Source of the DNA: Candidatus Lindowbacteria bacterium RIFCSPLOWO2_12_FULL_62_27
GTDB lineage: Bacteria; Lindowbacteria; 2-12-FULL-62-27
Reading direction: 5' to 3'
NCBI GenBank assembly: GCA_001784175.1
Contig: MFPR01000030.1
Coordinates: forward strand, 1 to 64,000
DNA length: 64,000 nt
The notes beneath the pieces were generated by a model. That model ran no database searches. It was not told the origin of the DNA and saw only the letters and a list, made by a program, of their open reading frames with translations. Position 1 is the first letter of the stretch. Every line of letters starts with the position of its first letter. Both the position numbers and the translations under genes were made by a program. Below are positions 8,196 to 24,163 of this stretch, one piece after another.

Positions 8196-9629
8196 CTATT
8201 TCAGGTATCCATTAATGGTAATACCACTTGCGGTACTTGATTTGACGACTCCTCCGGCAGGGACAAATATTGGTAACGCCAATGTCAGAGTGGACGCCTC
8301 CCTGTCTTCGGCTGTTCCAACACTCGAATAAGCTGTGTTCCAGATTCCCTCCGCAAGTGTGTAGATCGACCCGCCGACCGTGAATTGCAAACTCGACCCG
8401 CTCGGACAATAAGCTTGCGATACAATCAGGAGTTTTCCTGTGGGAACCGTATAATTCACAGAGGACGTCACAGATTCTAAAATGACACTGACACCAGATG
8501 AAACCAAAAAGCCATTTATCGTGAAGGTATCAGTCGTACTTGTTTTAACTACGGCGGCTGCCGGTAGGATTATTGGTTGCGAGAGCGTAAGATTATTCAA
8601 TCCAATGGCGTTTGAAGAGTTGCTTAAAAAATCCCCTTTATTCCAGCCAGCCGAGCCATAAATGTCTAAAATCGTGTAGGTACTTGCACCGATGGTTACT
8701 TGCAATGTTGCAGCCGCCACATTGGAGTAGACCTGCGTGACATAAAGCGTTTTACCGGTGGGGACTGTGTAATTGACCAGCGAGGAAACCTGGGAAAAAA
8801 CGGGTGTCATGCCAATTGTTCCGTCCGGGAAGCGCAGGTCACCGCCCCCTCCGATAATCGTCCCATCAGATTTTTCGAACGTGTCGGCTTTGACCGTGCC
8901 CGATACGTGCAAAGTGGCCGTAGGTGTATCTGTCCCAACGCCCACGTAACCAGATGTGTCGATCAACATCCGCGTCACGCCTGCGTCTTCATCTTCAACT
9001 GAAAACGATCCGGGTTTCTTGGACGAACCCGTCCCCGCCGACCGCATATTCCATTTCCGGCCACCGGCAGATGAGTTGCTAACCTGCACGTACACGTCCG
9101 CCCCGTTGTTTGCGACGGTCAAATTTCTACCGGGACTGGATGTGCCGATGCCGACATACCCGTTGTCCTTGACGACCAGCGCAGTGTCCTTCACTGTTAA
9201 CGTGTCTTTGACCGTAAACGATCCCGATGCCTGTGCCGAGCCGGCCAAAAACGCCGCCGTATCCGCATAGAGGGCATAGGGGGACGCCAACAGTTTTCGC
9301 CGCGGCGTCATCTCCGCGTTGCCGGCGATGGAAACGCCCAACCAATACTGCGTGTCAAACGCCAATGTCAATGGCGTGACACTGCCCAGTTCGACATCAA
9401 ACACGCCGCTTGTGATAGATACCGAAGACTGGGCTTCCGTCCACAGTGAAGACCCGCCTGAGGGAACATTATACATTCTAAATGTCATGGAGTAGTTGCC
9501 CTGCAGGCGGACTCCGTTGGTATCTGTCAGTTGACCTTGAAAAGAAATTAGACGCGGCGCGTTGGCGTAGGCCGGAATTGCAATAAAAAAAAGGACCAGA
9601 ATGCAACAAACCACGTTTCTCAATATCAT
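8196..9629 (-). CDS. Exported fibre-like protein with duplicated C-terminal domain
   Basis: 477 aa. A signal peptide (about residues 1-22) is followed by the conserved opening PRLISFQGQLTDTNG, a domain shared with the next gene upstream. A linker with stalk-like motifs (GYVGIGTSSPG, GYVGVGTDTPTATLHVSG) resembles the shafts of phage tail fibres and S74-type fibres. The last about 200 residues are two tandem copies of a roughly 100-residue domain, each with VNYTVPTGK near its start and ending in ING(F/Y)L. The start is backed by a strong Shine-Dalgarno (GAGGAGGTT, about 5 nt before ATG). It sits 31 nt after the upstream paralogue stop and 64 nt before the giant gene. The function is not known; a surface fibre or adhesin is likely. 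No catalytic motif is visible. Confidence 0.75.
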   Translation of the reverse strand: MILRNVVCCILVLFFIAIPAYANAPRLISFQGQLTDTNGVRLQGNYSMTFRMYNVPSGGSSLWTEAQSSVSITSGVFDVELGSVTPLTLAFDTQYWLGVSIAGNAEMTPRRKLLASPYALYADTAAFLAGSAQASGSFTVKDTLTVKDTALVVKDNGYVGIGTSSPGRNLTVANNGADVYVQVSNSSAGGRKWNMRSAGTGSSKKPGSFSVEDEDAGVTRMLIDTSGYVGVGTDTPTATLHVSGTVKADTFEKSDGTIIGGGGDLRFPDGTIGMTPVFSQVSSLVNYTVPTGKTLYVTQVYSNVAAATLQVTIGASTYTILDIYGSAGWNKGDFLSNSSNAIGLNNLTLSQPIILPAAAVVKTSTTDTFTINGFLVSSGVSVILESVTSSVNYTVPTGKLLIVSQAYCPSGSSLQFTVGGSIYTLAEGIWNTAYSSVGTAEDREASTLTLALPIFVPAGGVVKSSTASGITINGYLK

Positions 9630-15653: not shown

Positions 15654-17040
15654 GAGTCAATCCCTTTTTTAGTTGAAAATGCTGCATGACTCACGCCGCT
15701 TTAGCCTCGCAGACAACATGTTGTTTCATGGCCAGCCGAAGTTTCTTGAGTAAGCGGTGGCCTTTTACTCTTCGGAGCCAGGGCTCGACTTCCAGCAGCG
15801 CGGAGGCTACCCAGCGTTGCCGCTGATCGCTGTTCTTCCAGCTCGTGACGCGCCCGGTATATTGTCCGACCATGCTGTTGAGCGACTCGATGCAATTCGT
15901 CGTTTTGAAACTCGTACCCAACTCGGAAAACACCCCCAGCCGATGAAGCGTCAGCGTTTCCTCCAAGCCTTCATCCAAACTGGCAACCGCCGACACATTC
16001 AGCCGTTTGAGTTCCTGCCGAACGTTCATCAGCTTCTGCCTGGCCACGTCGTATGTCAGTTCGTCGTAGGCGTCCTGAAGTTTTCCGCGAAACTCGCCCT
16101 GATGCTTTTTGTCCAGATAGCTCACCACATTCTCGCGCTTATGCCACTGACAGCGCTGCACACACGCGCCTGCGCCGATCACATCCGTGATCGCCTTCCG
16201 AATACCTTTTGCTCCGTCGATGATGAACAGAATTTCTTCCTCCATCTTCAAGCCTCGCTGCACCAAGCCGCTGAGAAACTCCTTGCACACCCGCGCGTTC
16301 TCCGTGCTCGTCTCGATGAACCCCAAAACCAGCTTTTTTCCCTCGATGGTGATCCCGAGGGCGATCACCACCTCCAACTCGCCAAGACTTTTGCCGTCAA
16401 TAAAAATCGCCACGATGTCCTCCTGGCTGAGGTCGCGCTCCATCAATTTCTTCAGTTGCCGGGCCGTCGCGCGGATAAATCGCCTCGACACGCTGTTGCG
16501 CCGGATCCCAAACGTCTCCGGGACCGTCAGCGCCGCCCGTTCGTACTTGCGGCTGCTGAGACCGTTGATCATTCGAGCCAATACCGCATGGTCAATCACT
16601 CGTGGATTCTGCAGCGCCTGATAACTCTGCAATGGAACTTCGCATCCATCATTCGTATTTCGAACGCGAGGCACTTCGATCAGAATTTTCTGGTCGCCCA
16701 AATACACGGACCCCGGATTCTTTCCCCAACGCCCGATGCCGGGGCTTTGCCGGCTGTGCCTCTCTCCAACCAGCCGCCGAACCTCATCCTGCAATTCGTC
16801 GTGGACATCTTTCAGCCCCAGCGGAATCAACATCTGGATCAACTCCACCCTCCCGTTCAAATCGTTACTCGCAGCTTCCATCGCCCGGATCGTCTCCGTT
16901 CGATTTTTTGATTTGCTTCCCGTTCCAAAACGTATTACCTTTTTCATCAGCATGACCTCCTGTTTTTTGGTGTTGTCCTTCGTCAGTCAACACCTTAGCG
17001 AGGTCATGCATCATTTTTCAACTAATTTTAGGACATTCTC
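15654..17040. mobile_element. IS256-family insertion sequence, complete, 1387 bp
   Basis: It is flanked by an exact 8-bp direct repeat, gattcctc, at 15646-15653 and 17041-17048. The imperfect terminal inverted repeats (about 37 bp) share TTAGTTGAAAA, ATG and TGCATGAC. One transposase gene is carried on the minus strand with the three acidic residues present. Length and 8-bp duplication fit IS256. Both ends and the target duplication are clean, so the insertion looks recent. Confidence 0.92.
15691..16953 (-). CDS. IS256-family (MULE-type) transposase
   Basis: 420 aa, full length for IS256 transposases (about 390-420). DDE residues are visible: DIVAIFIDGKSLGE (first Asp), ILFIIDGAKGIRKAI (second Asp) and TTNCIESLNSMVG (Glu). 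The CQWHK motif typical of mutator-like transposases is present (QRCQWHKRENVV). The first in-frame starts are MLM; the third codon (MKKVIRF) is equally possible. The protein has no frameshift or stop, so the element may be active. Confidence 0.93.
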   Translation of the reverse strand: MLMKKVIRFGTGSKSKNRTETIRAMEAASNDLNGRVELIQMLIPLGLKDVHDELQDEVRRLVGERHSRQSPGIGRWGKNPGSVYLGDQKILIEVPRVRNTNDGCEVPLQSYQALQNPRVIDHAVLARMINGLSSRKYERAALTVPETFGIRRNSVSRRFIRATARQLKKLMERDLSQEDIVAIFIDGKSLGELEVVIALGITIEGKKLVLGFIETSTENARVCKEFLSGLVQRGLKMEEEILFIIDGAKGIRKAITDVIGAGACVQRCQWHKRENVVSYLDKKHQGEFRGKLQDAYDELTYDVARQKLMNVRQELKRLNVSAVASLDEGLEETLTLHRLGVFSELGTSFKTTNCIESLNSMVGQYTGRVTSWKNSDQRQRWVASALLEVEPWLRRVKGHRLLKKLRLAMKQHVVCEAKAA

Positions 17041-17425: not shown

Positions 17426-17872
17426 GTGGCGGGGCCCGTATTATTTTACAGGGACCAGTATCTCCCGGATGTCGGCCTGAAGCGGATGGCACAAATGCGC
17501 GAGTTGGCCGATTTGATAGAGCATCCGGAGGAGGTAAGCGCAATATCTCAGCGGGAGGCGCAAGAGATGTTGATTAAGATCAGCCGGCTGCAGACAGCCC
17601 TTCTCATTCGCGCAGTGGTGCCGGCGGTTGAAAATTGCAGCGATGAGAAACTGCCGGATCGGGACAGGCTTCTCACCCCGGAGGAGACGGGGAAGCGGCT
17701 GGGCAGGAGCGTCCGCTGGATATATCGGAATGCAAAAAATCTGCCGTTCGCCGTCAAGCTTTCCCGAAAATGCCTCCGATTTAGTGAGGCAAGACTGACG
17801 AAGTGGATCGACCAGAAATTGGCCATGAACAGATGTTCTCCATCGGATAAAGACAGGAGGCGGACTCCGTGA
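17426..17872 (+). CDS. Excisionase-like helix-turn-helix protein
   Basis: 148 aa. The C-terminal half holds a MerR/HTH_17-type excisionase domain (LLTPEETGKRLGRSVRWIYR, then FAVKLSRKCLRFSEARLTKW), preceded by an about 75-residue helical region. GTG start at 17426. The stop overlaps the GTG of the integrase gene by 4 nt (GTGA), so the two are translationally coupled, the usual layout for recombination directionality factors. Confidence 0.7.
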   Translation: MAGPVLFYRDQYLPDVGLKRMAQMRELADLIEHPEEVSAISQREAQEMLIKISRLQTALLIRAVVPAVENCSDEKLPDRDRLLTPEETGKRLGRSVRWIYRNAKNLPFAVKLSRKCLRFSEARLTKWIDQKLAMNRCSPSDKDRRRTP

Positions 17873-18999
17873 AAGAACGCGGATTGGGGAGTATATACAG
17901 ACCAAAATACAAAAACCCGGGCGGGGCATTGATCGAATCCGGCGTCTGGTGGATCAGGTACTCCTACAGGGGGACTGTGCACAGAGAATCGTCAAAGTCC
18001 CGCAGCAAGGCTGACGCAGTCCGGCTGTTGAAGAAACGGCAGGGGGATATGGCAGCGGGCCGAGCGGGTGGCCCAGACATAGAAAAGACAACCTTTGATG
18101 ATCTGGCCAAATTGATCCTGACGGATTACGAGGTGAATGGCCGCCCGTCGATCAAACGACTTAGCTTCTCCATCAGCCAACTGCGGAATATTTTTGGCGA
18201 TTATAACGCGATGGATATAACGCATGACAGGATTCTTTCCTATATTAAATTGCGGAAAGATGCAGGGGCGGAAAACGCCACCATCAATCGGGAATTGGCC
18301 GCGCTCAAGCGAATGTTCAATCTGGGCAAACGCGCGCTCAAAGTTGGGCAACCTCCGTACATCCCGATGCTTAAAGAGGACAATGTCCGGAAAGGATTCT
18401 TTGAGTATCCTGAATATCAGGCTTTTCTCGATCATCTGCCAACATATCTTCAGCCCGTCATGGAGACGGCATACATCACGGGTTGGAGGATAAAATCAGA
18501 AATTTTGACGCGTCTGAAAATACACCTTGATATGTCGGAGGGCTGGCTCAGACTAGACACGGGTGAAACCAAGAACGGCGAGGGCCGTCAGTTTCCTCTT
18601 ATTCCCGAGTTGAGGAGGGTCATGGAGGACCAGTTGGCACGGACAAGGGAATTGGAAAGAAATACCGGGCGCATCATACCGTGGTTATTTCATCGTGATG
18701 GGCAGCCCATCAAGGATTTTCGATATGTCTGGGACAAGGCCAAGGAACTGGCCGCCGTTCCGGATCGGATTCCCCATGACTTCCGCAGAACGGCCGTCAG
18801 GAACCTCGAGCGCGCTGGAGTCCCAAGATCCGTTGCCATGAAACTTGTCGGACACAAAACAGAGTCCATGTACCGAAGATACGCCATCGTCGAAGAAAGC
18901 GACATGAAAGAGGCGGCGGAGAAACTTGCCGCATTGCAGAAGGCCCGTCGATTCATGACCATGAAAGTAGTTCCTCTCCGCCCCGCAGCCAACGAATAA
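17869..18999 (+). CDS. int: Tyrosine recombinase (phage-type integrase)
   Basis: 376 aa. It has an N-terminal Arm-type region (ERGLGSIYRPKYK), a core-binding SAM-like domain (about residues 70-165) and a catalytic domain with Arg in TGWRIKSEIL, HDFRRTAVRNL (His and second Arg), VGHKTESMY (His) and the Tyr nucleophile in MYRRYAIVEE. All catalytic residues are present, so it should be active. GTG start coupled to the upstream excisionase gene. The tRNA-Leu half-gene 90 nt downstream on the opposite strand marks the integration end. Confidence 0.92.
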   Translation: MKERGLGSIYRPKYKNPGGALIESGVWWIRYSYRGTVHRESSKSRSKADAVRLLKKRQGDMAAGRAGGPDIEKTTFDDLAKLILTDYEVNGRPSIKRLSFSISQLRNIFGDYNAMDITHDRILSYIKLRKDAGAENATINRELAALKRMFNLGKRALKVGQPPYIPMLKEDNVRKGFFEYPEYQAFLDHLPTYLQPVMETAYITGWRIKSEILTRLKIHLDMSEGWLRLDTGETKNGEGRQFPLIPELRRVMEDQLARTRELERNTGRIIPWLFHRDGQPIKDFRYVWDKAKELAAVPDRIPHDFRRTAVRNLERAGVPRSVAMKLVGHKTESMYRRYAIVEESDMKEAAEKLAALQKARRFMTMKVVPLRPAANE

Positions 19000-19087
19000 A
19001 GATGAACTGGCAAAGTTTTGGCAAAGTCAGGGGTATCTCGTGTGTGCAACTCGTTGAATATCAAATGAAGGGTTGTCAATCCGCCGA

Positions 19088-19128
19088 GGATTTTGAGTCC
19101 CGCGCGTCTGCCGTTCCGCCACTCCGGC
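19088..19128 (-). tRNA. 5' half of tRNA-Leu(CAA), partial; attachment-site scar
   Basis: On the minus strand from 19128 the sequence runs GCCGGAGTGGCGGAACGGCA, then GACGCGCGGGACTCAAAATCC. This is the acceptor strand, D arm and anticodon stem-loop (loop CTCAAAA, anticodon CAA) of a bacterial tRNA-Leu. After the 3' side of the anticodon stem the match stops: no variable arm, T arm (GGTTCGAATCC) or acceptor CTCCGGC follows. It ends toward the integrase gene, so recombination probably took place in the anticodon stem-loop. The partner 3' half is not in this window. Confidence 0.75.
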
Positions 19129-19143
19129 CTGAATCTGATAGAC

Positions 19144-19204: not shown

Positions 19205-19259
19205 TTTGATTAAGTTAAAATACTCTAACTTGATTTACAGGCAAGAACTGAGTTAGGAT
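19205..19259 (+). promoter_or_regulatory. Palindromic operator and promoter of the FMN-binding/ApbE gene
   Basis: An inverted repeat AAGTTA-N8-TAACTT lies at 19212-19231. It touches a -35-like TTGATT (19230-19235), with an 18-nt spacer to TAGGAT (19254-19259). Only 6 nt separate the -10 from the ATG at 19266, predicting a leaderless mRNA. The right half-site (TCTAAC) also occurs in front of the DtxR-type regulator gene at 21510, so that regulator may bind both. Confidence 0.45.
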
Positions 19260-19265
19260 ACGGGC

Positions 19266-20765
19266 ATGATCGCACGATTTGAGCTTGTCCTCTGTCTTTG
19301 CCTGATGGGGACCATCGCCGGTGTATCCCATCCGGAGGCGTCGCAGGCGCAACCGCCGGGGCCACTTCTTGCGCGGATATATCCGGAAGCGTCCGCCATG
19401 CGGGAGAAGATCCTCTGGCTGGATGAGGGCGCTCAGGCGCAGGTCCGAGCGAAGGCGCGGGCGCCGTTTGACGAGCCTCACGTGTCCTACACCGAAATCG
19501 CCGGCGCGGGTGGCGTGGCCGGGTACGCCTTTGTCGACGACGTCAAGGGACTGCACGAGATGATCACGTATCTGGCGGCTCTGAACTCCGACGGGACCGT
19601 ACGGGCGGTTGAGATTCTGGCGTACCGGGAGGCCTATGGGTTCGAAATCAAGCACGAGCGGTTCCGGCGTCAGTTTGTGGGCAAGCGGCTCGAGGATCCG
19701 ATCCGTGTCGGAGCCGACATCCGCAACATTGCCGGCGCGACGATTTCGACGAACGCGATTTCCACGGGTGTGCGGAAGATTCTTGCGTTGTATGAGGTGG
19801 GGATCAAAGGGATGGTGACGCAGGGCGACAACCGAAATCTGCCACCCTCACCCCGACCCTCTCCCGCCAGAGGCGGGAGAGGGGGGTTACAGGACGGATA
19901 TCTTGAACACGATTCCGGCGCGTCCATCCGTCGATCGAGACCCGTGTGGGGGACGACCCTGACGGTCGAAGCAGCCGACACCGACAGGGGTCGGGACGTT
20001 CTCGAAGCGGCCTTCCGGGATGTCGAATCGCTGACGCCCGTCTTCAGCCGGTATGACACCGCGAGCGAAATTACCCGGCTGAACGCCCGGCCGGGCGAAT
20101 GGCACGATCCCTCTGTGGATTTTGCTGCGCTGTTCGATCTGTCTATGAGCGCGGCGCGCGAAACGAAAGGCTGGTTCGATCCGACCAAGCGCCGGGAGGG
20201 CCTGTCGCATGTGCATTTGGACGGAGGCGCGTCCGGGCGGCCCGCGCGAATGAGACTCGATACAGGAACCGCGCTTGATTTCGACGGCATAGCCAAGGGA
20301 TACGCGGTGGACCGAGTCATCCGGATTCTTCGATCGGCGGGGATTTCAAGCGGTCTCGTGAATTTCGGCGAGAGCAGCATCGCGGCGATCGGGTCGCCCG
20401 CGGGCGCCGGGCGCTGGCAGATTTCCGTGCGCGATCCGCGCCGCCCGAAGTCCGTGGCGACGCAGCCGCTCCTGCGGCTCGCGATCCGCGACGCGGTCGT
20501 GTCCGTGTCGGGCGCTTACGAACGCGGACCTCACATCATCGATCCCTTTACAGGAAAACCGCCTCCGGACAGCCTGCTGGCCGTCGTCGTGGGGCCGTTG
20601 GCGGCGTGGGATGGCGCCCGATCGGACGCGTGGTCGACGGCGCTTTTTGCCTGCGGCCCAAAACTTCTCGCCGACGCCGGCGCGGCCGGGTTTGAGGCCC
20701 TGTGGCTGGGTCCGGCCGGGCCGGTCCGAACGAAGGGATTTTCGGCGTACGAGGAAGGGCCATGA
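19266..20765 (+). CDS. Exported FMN-binding domain fused to ApbE FMN transferase
   Basis: 499 aa. Signal peptide (residues about 1-28). The FMN-binding (RnfG/NqrC-type) domain at about 70-180 carries the flavinylation motif NIAGATISTNAIS; Thr159 is the expected acceptor. An insert follows (PPSPRPSPARGGRG, about 193-206) encoded by a palindromic DNA repeat. The ApbE domain at about 225-495 shows WGTTLTVEA, SRYDTASEITRLN, IAKGYAVDRVIRIL, SGAYERGPHIIDPFTGKPP and DAWSTALFACG. ApbE moves FMN from FAD to the Thr of the target domain in the periplasm, so this chain carries both enzyme and substrate. It is first in a row with a His-rich membrane protein, a DtxR-type regulator and FeoAB, which points to a periplasmic or extracytosolic ferric-reductase role; that link is inference. 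Confidence 0.88.
   Translation: MIARFELVLCLCLMGTIAGVSHPEASQAQPPGPLLARIYPEASAMREKILWLDEGAQAQVRAKARAPFDEPHVSYTEIAGAGGVAGYAFVDDVKGLHEMITYLAALNSDGTVRAVEILAYREAYGFEIKHERFRRQFVGKRLEDPIRVGADIRNIAGATISTNAISTGVRKILALYEVGIKGMVTQGDNRNLPPSPRPSPARGGRGGLQDGYLEHDSGASIRRSRPVWGTTLTVEAADTDRGRDVLEAAFRDVESLTPVFSRYDTASEITRLNARPGEWHDPSVDFAALFDLSMSAARETKGWFDPTKRREGLSHVHLDGGASGRPARMRLDTGTALDFDGIAKGYAVDRVIRILRSAGISSGLVNFGESSIAAIGSPAGAGRWQISVRDPRRPKSVATQPLLRLAIRDAVVSVSGAYERGPHIIDPFTGKPPPDSLLAVVVGPLAAWDGARSDAWSTALFACGPKLLADAGAAGFEALWLGPAGPVRTKGFSAYEEGP
19857..19883. repeat. REP-like palindrome inside the FMN-ApbE coding sequence
   Basis: ccctctcccgcc-aga-ggcgggagaggg: a perfect 12-bp stem. With its left context (ccctcaccccgaccctctcc) it matches a palindromic repeat common between genes in many bacteria. 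Here it is in frame and forms the linker between the two domains. Confidence 0.8.
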
Positions 20766-20775
20766 TTTCCGAAAT

Positions 20776-20890
20776 TTGCTTTTGTGGCTATAGGTGCGAT
20801 AAAATATACATGGAAAAGCCCTCTTTGCCGGTAAGGTCGAAAGCCTTACCAACGGCTCCGGTCCTGCTTCAGACCGGAGCCGTCTTTGTC
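20776..20890 (+). promoter_or_regulatory. Promoter and two-hairpin structured leader
   Basis: In the 133-nt gap after the ApbE fusion there is a promoter (TTGCTT 20776-20781, 18-nt spacer, TAAAAT 20800-20805; TTGTGG-17-TATACA is an alternative). A first hairpin GGTAAGG-tcgaaag-CCTTACC (20830-20850) follows. The second is a 10-bp-stem hairpin CGGCTCCGGT / ACCGGAGCCG (20853-20882) followed by the T-rich TCTTTGTCT, like a terminator. The ATG of the next gene is at 20899. The layout fits an attenuating leader or riboswitch expression platform; I do not recognise a known riboswitch consensus. Confidence 0.5.
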
Positions 20891-20898
20891 TACGGCTC

Positions 20899-21456
20899 AT
20901 GACCCAGTATTACGCGCTTCCGAAGTTTTCTCTGAACCGCTCGCGTCCGTCGATCAAGGTTCTCATCACGCTGTTTTTGATCGGGACGCTTCTGGCGACG
21001 TGGCTATCGGTGTACACGCTGCACCACCGGACGGGCCTGACTGTGCGAGGCGTGGTGCAGTATTATCTCGGAAACGAAGGCGTGGTCGGCGCAGCGGAGA
21101 TTTTATTTCCAAAATCAAGCGGCGAGATGCTCGAATTTTTTCACATCCATGCCTTCACGCTGCTTCTTCTCATGTTCATCCTCTGCCATTTCGTCGCGCT
21201 GACGACGGTGAGCGAGGCGCGCAAGATCATGAATTTCACGCTGACGTTTCTGTCGTGGCTCGGCATGATGGTCTTCCCCTGGGGCGTGCGGTTCGGCGCG
21301 TCGCCGTCGCGGTGGGCGGGCGCCGCTCTCTGCAGCGGATTTGTGTTTCTGGCGGTCACCGCCGTCGGGTCCGCGGCCGTTCTTTGGGAAGTATGGATAT
21401 CGCCGCTTGGGGACGCGAAGGCGCTCGGCGATCCGGAAGACGGCCCGGACCTGTGA
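20899..21456 (+). CDS. Four-helix, His-rich membrane protein (possible b-type cytochrome)
   Basis: 185 aa with four predicted membrane helices at about 19-41, 82-101, 111-129 and 138-163. The histidines are grouped at membrane edges: His42/His43 at the end of helix 1, His82/His84 at the start of helix 2 and His97 near its other end. His84 and His97 are 13 residues apart in one helix, the spacing used for two-heme ligation in cytochromes b. I recognise no named family. Between an exported flavoprotein and a ferrous-iron importer, a transmembrane electron conduit is the simplest guess. Its own promoter and structured leader suggest separate regulation. Confidence 0.65.
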   Translation: MTQYYALPKFSLNRSRPSIKVLITLFLIGTLLATWLSVYTLHHRTGLTVRGVVQYYLGNEGVVGAAEILFPKSSGEMLEFFHIHAFTLLLLMFILCHFVALTTVSEARKIMNFTLTFLSWLGMMVFPWGVRFGASPSRWAGAALCSGFVFLAVTAVGSAAVLWEVWISPLGDAKALGDPEDGPDL

Positions 21457-21470
21457 AACAACCGGGCGAC

Positions 21471-21509
21471 TTTACTTTGGACACCCAAACTTAGTAAACT
21501 ATGTCTAAC
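21471..21509 (+). promoter_or_regulatory. Promoter/operator of the DtxR-type regulator gene
   Basis: TTTACT (21471-21476), 18-nt spacer, TAAACT (21495-21500), placing the start of transcription near the ATG at 21510. TTAG-N10-CTAA (21491-21508) overlaps the -10 and shares the TCTAAC half-site found before the gene at 19266; it could be an autoregulatory site. A second reading is TTGGAC-17-TATGTC. Confidence 0.4.
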
Positions 21510-21974
21510 ATGAGGAACACAGGCCCGAGGAGCAAGTTAACCGAGAGCATGGAGATGTATCTGAAGACAATCCTGCAGATTCAGCGGCACCGGCAGGTGG
21601 CGCGGGTGCGGGACATTGCCGAGGCGCTGGACGTTTCGATGTCGAGCGTCACGGCCGGCCTGAAGGGGTTGGCCTCCAAGTCGCTCATTCATCATGACCG
21701 ATACGAATATGTGCAGTTGACGGAGGAAGGGAAGAAGCGAGCGGAGGATTTGCTGTACAAGTGCGAAGTGATGGGCAAGTTTTTCTCCCAGTGTCTGGGC
21801 GTGGAGGAGGGGATTGCCAAGTCCGACGCGTGTTTGATGGAGCATGTGGTGAGTGGCGAGACCATCGACCGGATGATCCGATTTATGGAGTACGTCGAAT
21901 CGGACGCGCAAAAGGGCAAGAGGCTGATCGACGGATTCCAGACGTTCGCACGCCGGAACCGCCGTAGCCGGTAG
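21510..21974 (+). CDS. DtxR/MntR-family metal-dependent repressor
   Basis: 154 aa. N-terminal winged helix (SMEMYLKTILQIQ, VARVRDIAEALDVSMSSVTA, SLIHHDRYEYVQLTEEGKKR) followed by the metal-binding/dimerisation domain (FFSQCLGVEEGIAKSDACLM, EHVVSGETIDRM). The Glu, Cys and His ligands of the DtxR/MntR type are present (DACLMEHVVS). There is no C-terminal SH3 domain, as in MntR. The ATG at 21510 is preferred to the one at 21501 because the -10 box would otherwise abut the start. It lies 18 nt before feoA and should repress the locus when iron or manganese is ample. Confidence 0.82.
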   Translation: MRNTGPRSKLTESMEMYLKTILQIQRHRQVARVRDIAEALDVSMSSVTAGLKGLASKSLIHHDRYEYVQLTEEGKKRAEDLLYKCEVMGKFFSQCLGVEEGIAKSDACLMEHVVSGETIDRMIRFMEYVESDAQKGKRLIDGFQTFARRNRRSR

Positions 21975-21992
21975 CGGGCGAAGGACGGGGAT

Positions 21993-22220
21993 ATGACCGT
22001 GTTGGATCTGCCCAGGAACCGCTGGGCCCGGGTCGAGGCAGTGGAGGGTGACGACGCGATCCGGACGCGGCTTTTGGAGATGGGCTTCACGCCCGGCGAA
22101 TGCATCCGGCTGGTCGCCGCGTCGCCCTTTCACAATCCCATCGCCGTCAACCTCCGCGGCACCGTGTTCGCGCTGCGGGACTACGAAGCTTCCTGTCTAA
22201 AAGTATGTCTGATGGATTGA
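21993..22220 (+). CDS. feoA: Ferrous iron transport protein A
   Basis: 75 aa, the normal size. SH3-like FeoA fold: ARVEAVEGDDAIRTRLLEMG, FTPGECIRLV and NLRGTVFALRDYEASCL with the closing Leu-Lys-Val strand. It supports the FeoB permease in ferrous-iron uptake. The end overlaps the FeoB start by 16 nt, indicating coupled translation. Confidence 0.88.
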   Translation: MTVLDLPRNRWARVEAVEGDDAIRTRLLEMGFTPGECIRLVAASPFHNPIAVNLRGTVFALRDYEASCLKVCLMD

Positions 22221-24163
22221 GTCTCCCGACGGAGAGCCCCGCCACCGCATCCGCCGCCCCGCTCGTGGCGCTCGCCGGGCTGCCGAACTCCGGCAAGACC
22301 ACCCTGTACAATGCGCTGACCGGATCCCACTACCGGACGGTCAACTATCCGGGGTCGACGGTCGAGTACGCGATCGGCCGCGGCCGGATCGGAAGCCGGC
22401 CGGCGCGGGTGATGGACTCGCCGGGCATCACGAGCCTGACGAGCCAGTCTCTGGACGAAGTCACGACGGTCCGTGCGCTTTTCGGGCACTCCCGGCACGG
22501 GATGCCGGACGTGGTCGTGGTGGTGGCGGACGCGACGCAGTTGCCGAGGCATCTCTATCCGGCGATGCAGCTCATCGGGGCCGGCCACCGCGTCGTGATC
22601 GCGCTGACGATGGTGGACATCCTCGAACAGCGGAAACACATGCGGATCGATACGGCGGCGGTCGAGGCCGACCTCAAGTGTCCGGTGGTCCGGGTGGACG
22701 GACGAACGGACGCGGGGGTGGAGGACCTGCGGCGGAAGATCAGCGAGAGCCTGCAGACGCCGCGTGCAGTCCAGCCGGCGCGGCCGGAGGCGCCGACCGA
22801 TACCGAGATTTCATCGATTTACCGGGCGCTGGAGCGGACTCAATCAAAGGCATTGCAGGCCGATGAGGCGAGGACTGATCTGGCCAAGCGCCTGTCGATC
22901 TGCATGTCGGACCCGCTGACGGAGCGTCTGGACCGGATTTTCCTTCATCCGGTGTTCGGCGTGGTCGTTTTCAGCACGATCATGACGGCGATTTTCACAT
23001 CGATTTTCTGGGTCGCGCGGCCGATGATGGATTCGGTCGACAGCGCCATCACGCTTCTGGCCGGCGCCGTCGGCGCCGTTCTGCCGGACGCCTGGCTTGC
23101 GCATCTGGTGACGGACGGCATGATCATGGGGGCCGGGGCGGTGGCGGTGTTCATTCCGCAGATTGTCATTTTGTTTCTGGCGCTCGGGTTTCTGGAGGAT
23201 TCCGGGTATCTGTCGCGCGGCGCAATGATCGTCGACCGGCCGCTGGCGGCGGTCGGGCTGTCGGGCCGAGGATTTGTGCCGATCCTGTCGGGGTTCGCGT
23301 GCGCGATCCCGGCGATGCTGTCGACGCGGACGATCCCGAGCGCGCGGGAGCGGATGCTGACGATTTTCATTCTGCCGCTCATGGTCTGCAGCGCGCGCCT
23401 GCCGGTGTATGGACTGCTTCTGTCGTTCCTCACGCCGGCGGACCGGCCGTGGATCGGCGGATTGGGACTGACGGCGCTGTATCTGTTCAGCGTGGTGTCG
23501 GGCCTCGTGGGCGCGGCGATTCTGGGCCGGTTTTTAAAACTGGACAAGAGCAAGAAGCCCACGCTGCTTTTGGAGCTTCCGGCGATCCGGCGGCCCAAGT
23601 TCCGCGTGGTCCTGACGTCGACCTATCACCGGACGAAGTCCTACATCCAGCGGGCCGGAGGGACGATCCTGGCGATTGCGATCGCGCTCTGGATTCTCAC
23701 TCACTTTCCCCCGAGGCCCGGGCTGACCGAATCGGAGCAGCTCTCGCAGTCGATCGCGGCCACGATGGGCCGGTGGATCGAGCCGGTGATGGCGCCGATG
23801 GGATTGGACTGGCGCGTGGGCGTGGCGCTCATCTGCGCGTTCGCCGCGCGCGAAGTTTTCGTCGGCGCGCTGGCGCTGGTGCTGCTCGTGTCGAGCGGGG
23901 GGGACGCGGTGGAAGCGCCGCTGTTTTTGGCGATGCGCCAGGCGACGCTTCCGGACGGAACGCCGCTTTTCACGTTTGCGTCCTGCCTCGGCCTCATCGT
24001 CTTTTTTGTGTTCGCGCTCCAGTGCATGTCGACGGTCGCAGTCAGCCGCAAGGAAACCGCGGGCTGGCGGATCCCCGCGCTGCAGCTCGTGGCCTTCACG
24101 GGCGTCGCCTACGTTTCAGCGGTCGCCGTGGTCCAAGTCCTGAGGTGGCTCGGAATTTCCTAG
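22205..24163 (+). CDS. feoB: Ferrous iron permease B
   Basis: 652 aa from the ATG at 22205 (MSDGLSLP). The N-terminal G domain has G1 GLPNSGKTT and G3 DSPGITS. G4 is TMVD (LTMVDILE) where FeoB normally has NxxD, and the G5 position reads VDGRTDAGVE rather than an SAxxG-like loop. The membrane part has the conserved Cys of SGFACAIPAMLSTRTIPSAR, the LMVCSARLPVYGLL segment and AFAAREVFVGAL. Function: Fe(II) import across the inner membrane. It follows feoA and is convergent with nadK, their stops overlapping by 4 nt. The G4 change should weaken guanine selectivity; whether uptake is affected cannot be told from sequence. Confidence 0.92.
   Translation: MSDGLSLPTESPATASAAPLVALAGLPNSGKTTLYNALTGSHYRTVNYPGSTVEYAIGRGRIGSRPARVMDSPGITSLTSQSLDEVTTVRALFGHSRHGMPDVVVVVADATQLPRHLYPAMQLIGAGHRVVIALTMVDILEQRKHMRIDTAAVEADLKCPVVRVDGRTDAGVEDLRRKISESLQTPRAVQPARPEAPTDTEISSIYRALERTQSKALQADEARTDLAKRLSICMSDPLTERLDRIFLHPVFGVVVFSTIMTAIFTSIFWVARPMMDSVDSAITLLAGAVGAVLPDAWLAHLVTDGMIMGAGAVAVFIPQIVILFLALGFLEDSGYLSRGAMIVDRPLAAVGLSGRGFVPILSGFACAIPAMLSTRTIPSARERMLTIFILPLMVCSARLPVYGLLLSFLTPADRPWIGGLGLTALYLFSVVSGLVGAAILGRFLKLDKSKKPTLLLELPAIRRPKFRVVLTSTYHRTKSYIQRAGGTILAIAIALWILTHFPPRPGLTESEQLSQSIAATMGRWIEPVMAPMGLDWRVGVALICAFAAREVFVGALALVLLVSSGGDAVEAPLFLAMRQATLPDGTPLFTFASCLGLIVFFVFALQCMSTVAVSRKETAGWRIPALQLVAFTGVAYVSAVAVVQVLRWLGIS

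Follow-up and report, generated by a model that had tools for sequence, protein, structure and literature searches.

We analysed a 64,000-nucleotide (nt) stretch (the window) of contig MFPR01000030.1 from Candidatus Lindowbacteria bacterium RIFCSPLOWO2_12_FULL_62_27, a groundwater bacterium. The locus under study comprises five genes for which a flavin-based route to iron uptake had been proposed from the letters alone (the original prediction). All five open reading frames were found where they had been placed, on the plus strand. They encode an exported fusion of FMN_bind and ApbE domains (19266-20765, 499 amino acids (aa); FMN, flavin mononucleotide), a 185-aa four-helix membrane protein (20899-21456), a DtxR/MntR-family repressor (21501-21974), the 75-aa FeoA (21993-22220) and the 652-aa ferrous iron importer FeoB (22205-24163). 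The last three assignments agree with Pfam matches to Fe_dep_repress and Fe_dep_repr_C in the regulator, to FeoA (1.5e-16), and to FeoB_N, Gate and FeoB_C in FeoB, which also matched TIGR00437 (1e-120, above its cut-off). FeoA and a FeoB with GTPase, Gate and FeoB_C domains, the components expected of Feo uptake, are thus present. The feoB start codon lies 16 nt inside feoA; no second FeoB_C match occurs in the 4.39-Mb genome.

The first gene was predicted to encode an exported protein joining an FMN acceptor domain to the ApbE transferase. Pfam detected both FMN_bind (7e-8; 19548-19784) and ApbE (8e-41), and the N-terminus is signal-like by eye. The predicted AGAT motif was located at A156-G157-A158-T159 within the sequence NIAGAT, which provides the Ser/Thr acceptor motif of FMN_bind domains with Thr159 (codon 19740-19742) as the predicted FMN acceptor; the FMN_bind acceptor motifs in sister clusters are [STA]GAT or GST variants. 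The ApbE core motifs DFDGIAKGYAVDR and HIIDPFTG are conserved relative to solved ApbE structures. Since the orthologs in two other genomes of the phylum are likewise fused (loci L003 and L113), the fusion is not an assembly accident. The FMN_bind gene is the only one in the genome, and the ApbE half therefore has no other FMN_bind partner there. The linker between the two domains (19846-19888) is encoded by a stretch that includes CCCTCACCCCGACCCTCTCCC and resembles a dispersed repeat. As a similar stretch occupies the same place in L003, both domains may have been joined by read-through of a repeat that was once intergenic.

The source genome (G000) was compared with these two genomes, G001 and G002, whose orthologs of the 185-aa protein share 67-75% identity. 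In both, the 185-aa gene is followed by genes for a DtxR-type regulator, FeoA (read from lists of open reading frames), FeoB and an NAD-kinase-like protein. The whole cluster lies on one contig in G001 (L003), where a gene for a 425-aa outer-membrane porin stands directly 5' of the fused FMN_bind-ApbE gene. The cluster of G002 is split: the porin and fusion genes occupy one contig end (L113), and the ApbE end, the 185-aa gene and the DtxR-type and FeoB genes another contig (L006). The porin is a part of the cluster beyond those named in the original prediction. It is absent upstream of the fusion in the source genome, which carries two porin paralogues on other contigs. The conserved adjacency anticipated for this locus was thus recovered in three of three phylum genomes for the whole cluster, and in about 20 families for its flavin/membrane-protein core.

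The wider family of the 185-aa protein was collected with a profile of the three orthologs, which retrieved homologs in 26 further genomes from a sample of 386. The 27 aligned members are widespread, covering about 20 GTDB families, and none had a credible Pfam or NCBIfam match; weak matches such as those to DUF1294 and a polyprenyltransferase were rejected as chance. G58, H82 and H84 are invariant (27/27), Y56 is kept in 26, K109 and W128 in 24, and E79, H97 and R131 in 23 members. H42 and H43 lack conservation and were therefore discarded as functional residues. Histidine conservation among homologues, on which the original prediction had staked its reading of this protein, extends to the distant members, for H82/H84 in all and for H97 in 23. 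The protein had been described as carrying H84 and H97 spaced like cytochrome b ligands. Both residues exist, alongside H42, H43 and H82, but the invariant feature is the HxH pair formed by H82 and H84. H84 and H97 are separated by 12 residues instead of the canonical H-x13-H, on an ideal helix they would point about 140 degrees away from each other, and H97 is missing in four members; for H82 and H97 the angle is 60 degrees. The cytochrome b analogy is thus a loose one, and H84/H97 as a cytochrome b pair was not supported in the form predicted.

An AlphaFold2 model built from the 27 homologs was confident (predicted local distance difference test (pLDDT) score 89.8, predicted template modelling score 0.82), and shows four long helices (17-45, 74-100, 106-132 and 136-166) and a short one (49-57). 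A model from the three close orthologs alone was poor (pLDDT 54) and was set aside. Because the charge distribution over the 27 members places both termini in the cytoplasm by the positive-inside rule, H82 and H84 would sit on helix 2 in its periplasmic half, with H97 toward the cytoplasmic side. A Foldseek search with the model gave no match at E < 0.5, and VIA matches of up to Z 8.5 were to soluble and designed four-helix bundles, which reflect a common arrangement only. A family-profile search of the sequences of solved structures returned nothing credible. The family matched none of the described membrane partner classes (NapH, MsrQ, PepSY, DsbD, NQR/RNF and DUF4405), although such partners may exist elsewhere in the genome. 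It appears to be an undescribed membrane component.

The genes around the homologs connect this protein with flavin domains and with iron. Of the 27 loci, 24 have FMN_bind and/or ApbE genes next to the homolog and 17 a porin-like gene, these porins matching weak beta-barrel models only. Iron genes near the homologs include FeoB with Fur (L053), FTR1-FtrD (L047, L068), FTR1 with a cytochrome c (L063 and its near-identical relatives L064 and L067), and a P19 gene with an ATP-binding cassette (ABC) transporter (L052). An Fbp-type solute-binding protein with permease and ATPase is found in L054, L061 and L065, and imelysin, a di-heme oxidoreductase and DUF1513 in L060. In a strict test, every FeoB_C, FTR1 and P19 gene of 28 genomes was located; with a distance limit of about 8 kb, FeoB, FTR1 or P19 accompanied the four-helix gene in 6 of 20 families (P about 2e-9 for random placement). 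The Fbp-type and imelysin cases, added afterwards and outside the P value, bring the count to 8 of about 20 families. The GTPase labelled FeoB in L050 is a different one, YchF-type by our reading, and was left out of the count; P19 (PF10634) had no match in the source genome. The predicted role in iron uptake thus gains independent support from this adjacency, as well as from the iron ligands of the DtxR-type regulator. Two of these loci hold a multicopper-oxidase-like protein in a flavin/porin cluster with an Fbp-like ABC importer (L054 10080-11237, by Pfam; L065 8447-9643, grouped by BLAST), so that oxidase and reductase may possibly share one iron locus. In L047, a 69-aa piece resembling the start of the four-helix protein (8528-8737) adjoins the intact gene and is likely a decayed duplicate.

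The regulator has the DtxR/IdeR domain layout, with an N-terminal helix-turn-helix and a metal-binding dimerisation domain (Pfam), and its overall resemblance is to MntR. Alignment to MntR structures identified its metal-site residues as M19, C111, E114 and H115. These correspond to the iron set of DtxR (Met10, Cys102, Glu105, His106) and not to the manganese set of MntR (Asp8, Glu99, Glu102, His103; PMC4805248); judged by these residues, the regulator carries an iron-type ligand set.

A further feature beyond the original prediction is a candidate palindromic operator, AAGTTAAA-ATAC-TCTAACTT (19212-19231, no strand assigned), 35 bp 5' of the fusion gene. The fusion and porin genes have promoters that overlap with this palindrome, AAGTT-N10-AACTT. 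The form AAGTTAGA-N4-TCTAACTT was read 5' of the porin-fusion operon of G001, where it has no mismatch. A search of the whole 4.4-Mb source genome with up to three mismatches returned only three places, the fusion gene (one mismatch) and both porin paralogues. A reversed control pattern gave 12 random places; hence the number of matches is not high, and it is their positions that are telling. At the three porin promoters of G001 and the source genome and at that of G002, as read from the sequence, TTGACA comes first and the palindrome then spans the -10 box, the copy in G002 being diverged. The regulator's own promoter region (21473-21495, plus strand) has only an operator-like half-site, ACTTTG-N6-CAAACTT, in an arrangement conserved 5' of the L003 and L006 orthologs; the palindrome there is imperfect, no 8+4+8 palindrome of at least 7 pairs being present. 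A standard DtxR box was not found by eye, and the spacing of the palindrome differs from it. The two operator-bearing porin paralogues (L017 790-2133 and L018 2420-3780) lie beside multiheme cytochrome c genes, and L017 also holds a molybdopterin oxidoreductase, which suggests a wider regulon.

Between the fusion and the 185-aa gene lies a structured RNA-like element (20810-20884, plus strand; fold z-score -5.4), which consists of CTTTGCCGGTAAGG, a hairpin and then a second hairpin that forms a strong terminator, ending 15 nt 5' of the 185-aa gene. Because of this terminator, the fusion may be transcribed separately in the source genome. Copies of the element were found in six loci (L105, L106, L107, L108, L109 and L111). 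Across three genomes its 13-mer was counted eight times, with no more than one control match, mostly beside porin, FMN-ApbE or multiheme cytochrome genes, and a TAAAAT box lies about 20-30 nt 5' of three copies. The element matched no Rfam family; a Corona_FSE match on the hairpin region (26.6 bits against a gathering threshold of 46) was rejected as chance. It could be a small RNA or an attenuator.

Upstream of the fusion, where the relatives have the porin, a gene resembling a tyrosine recombinase (integrase) occupies 17869-18999. It is followed by a minus-strand stretch that resembles by eye the 5' half of tRNA-Leu, in which ARAGORN found no tRNA, and the GC content rises from about 0.55 to 0.63 within 17869-19140. 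The region resembles the border of an integrated element, and this element may have parted the fusion from a porin. A Mutator/IS256-like transposase gene, recognized by eye, lies on the minus strand at 15691-16953, where the window has a low GC content.

Gene order, conservation, domains, motifs, operators and the cross-lineage association with iron transporters can be read directly from these loci. We consider it rather probable that the porin, the FMN-ApbE protein and the four-helix protein form an iron-regulated, flavin-based ferric reductase feeding FeoAB, in which flavinylation, heme, the electron source, the direction of electron flow and iron as the acceptor are the parts that we infer. 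Under iron shortage, the DtxR-type repressor would leave the palindromic operators at the promoters of the fusion and the outer-membrane porin. The fusion would be exported, and its ApbE half would place FMN on Thr159 in the FMN_bind half of the same protein. The four-helix protein, probably a dimer, would take electrons from quinol or another membrane donor and pass them to the FMN through its conserved His, Tyr and Arg sites, plausibly with heme b. The flavin would then reduce periplasmic Fe(III), which perhaps enters through the porin, and FeoAB would import the resulting Fe(II). More tentatively, we propose that the 185-aa family may be a new membrane electron-transfer class, carrying electrons from quinol to covalent flavin, whether it works as a heme b dimer or needs no heme, and that with the porin and the flavinylated protein it may form a widespread and so far undescribed ferric-reduction module serving FeoB, FTR1, Fbp-type ABC and P19 importers.

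Several observations weigh against a ferric reductase of this kind. The strict heme motif is absent, given the x12 spacing of H84 and H97 and the loss of H97 in four members, and a monomer has too few conserved histidines for two bis-His hemes, which would thus need a dimer, as proposed for FezC (PMC11334425). The acceptor motif AGAT departs at two positions (S/T and D) from the published flavinylation motif D-x-x-[S/T]-G-A-[S/T] (PMC12052999), TGAT or SGAT being present in other members of these flavin clusters, and the segment from FDPT to the IAKG motif is shorter in this ApbE half than in most sister-cluster ApbEs. Furthermore, in 12 of about 20 families the stretch searched around the homolog held no iron gene, so that the core may have other redox partners as well. 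The statistic on iron neighbours assumes simple random placement, and the Fbp-type assignments are based on general ABC domains.

A first alternative is a general periplasmic flavin relay in which porin, FMN_bind, four-helix protein and ApbE act as a multipurpose electron exit, respiratory or stress-related, that in this phylum only has an operon and a regulator in common with FeoAB, owing to an iron content or iron need of its own. In its favour are the majority of families without a nearby iron gene, the two operator-controlled porin paralogues that adjoin multiheme cytochromes c and not iron importers, and the terminator that may separate the fusion from the 185-aa gene. We nevertheless regard it as unlikely, since at least three unrelated kinds of iron importer recur beside the core, far above chance, and the operator of the fusion is common to porins only while the adjoining regulator has iron-type ligands. 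The four-helix protein could alternatively be a metal-binding or assembly factor whose periplasmic HxH passes Fe(II) or Cu to the importer, the flavoprotein receiving its electrons from elsewhere. H82 and H84, invariant whereas H97 is lost in four members, are two residues apart, a spacing no less suited to a metal site than to a heme pair, and no known cytochrome family is similar by sequence or profile. The tie to FMN_bind/ApbE (24/27) is, however, tighter than that to any metal transporter, and many members keep three His together with Arg, Trp and Tyr, a set that could suit a redox membrane protein, which makes the metal-binding or assembly role improbable. A manganese system with an MntR-like regulator and incidental FeoAB is most improbable, because, although MntR models and structures give the regulator's best profile scores, its metal site has the M, C, E, H of DtxR instead of the D, E, E, H of MntR (PMC4805248), the best PDB match, 1on2, has Met and not Asp at position 8 of the aligned sequence, and the neighbours in other lineages are iron transporters.

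The ferric reductase favoured here resembles several described systems. Flavinylation-linked iron assimilation is known from P19/FTR1-associated and VIT1-linked MsrQ/PepSY systems (Meheust et al. 2021, PMC8238504), in which extracytosolic FMN_bind proteins likewise stand beside iron transporters and assimilatory iron reduction was proposed; a relative of the 185-aa protein adjoins a P19 gene in L052. In contrast to those systems, the membrane partner here falls outside the classes named in that paper, FeoAB, with a DtxR-type regulator, serves as the importer, transferase and substrate form one protein, and the set includes a porin, FeoB and porins being unmentioned in the paper's text. DUF4405/FezC cytochromes are also small His-bearing membrane proteins near apbE that are thought to feed electrons to flavinylated proteins, and FezC was modelled as a homodimer (PMC11334425). 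None of the 27 members matched DUF4405, however, and there was no profile similarity (hhalign probability under 1%). DUF4405 has six membrane helices, compared with four long and one short in our model, and the 185-aa family has a His pattern of HxH and x12, its conserved His being spaced otherwise than the heme b His pairs of those cytochromes. FsrB/FoxB (COG3182) ferric-siderophore reductases similarly reduce Fe(III) in the periplasm before FeoAB import, but FsrB acts as one membrane reductase, from a different family, for which no ApbE/FMN_bind partner is described in the available part of the source (PMC10760861). Trypanosomatid fumarate reductases with fused ApbE share the joining of a flavin transferase to its own target (PMC12052999), whereas they are intracellular, eukaryotic and N-terminally fused, and the present protein is exported, linked to iron uptake and carries ApbE at its C-terminus. 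Finally, the FeoA and FeoB domains are those of the standard bacterial Feo system, whereas here one conserved cluster links them with a flavin-based reductase candidate and a DtxR-type repressor. In the literature searched, which leaves most subscription journals outside, we found no description of the 185-aa family, of its pairing with a porin, or of its coupling to FeoAB under a DtxR-type regulator. We read the cluster as a variation on flavinylation-linked iron assimilation that includes an undescribed membrane component.

In many cases the enzyme that reduces periplasmic ferric iron ahead of FeoB has yet to be identified; for Bradyrhizobium, the inorganic-iron reductase is explicitly called unknown (PMC10760861). 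The present module is a concrete and testable candidate for this step in many uncultured lineages. It adds a membrane-protein family without a database model to flavin-based electron transfer, and the fusion offers a simple, predicted self-flavinylating protein for laboratory study.

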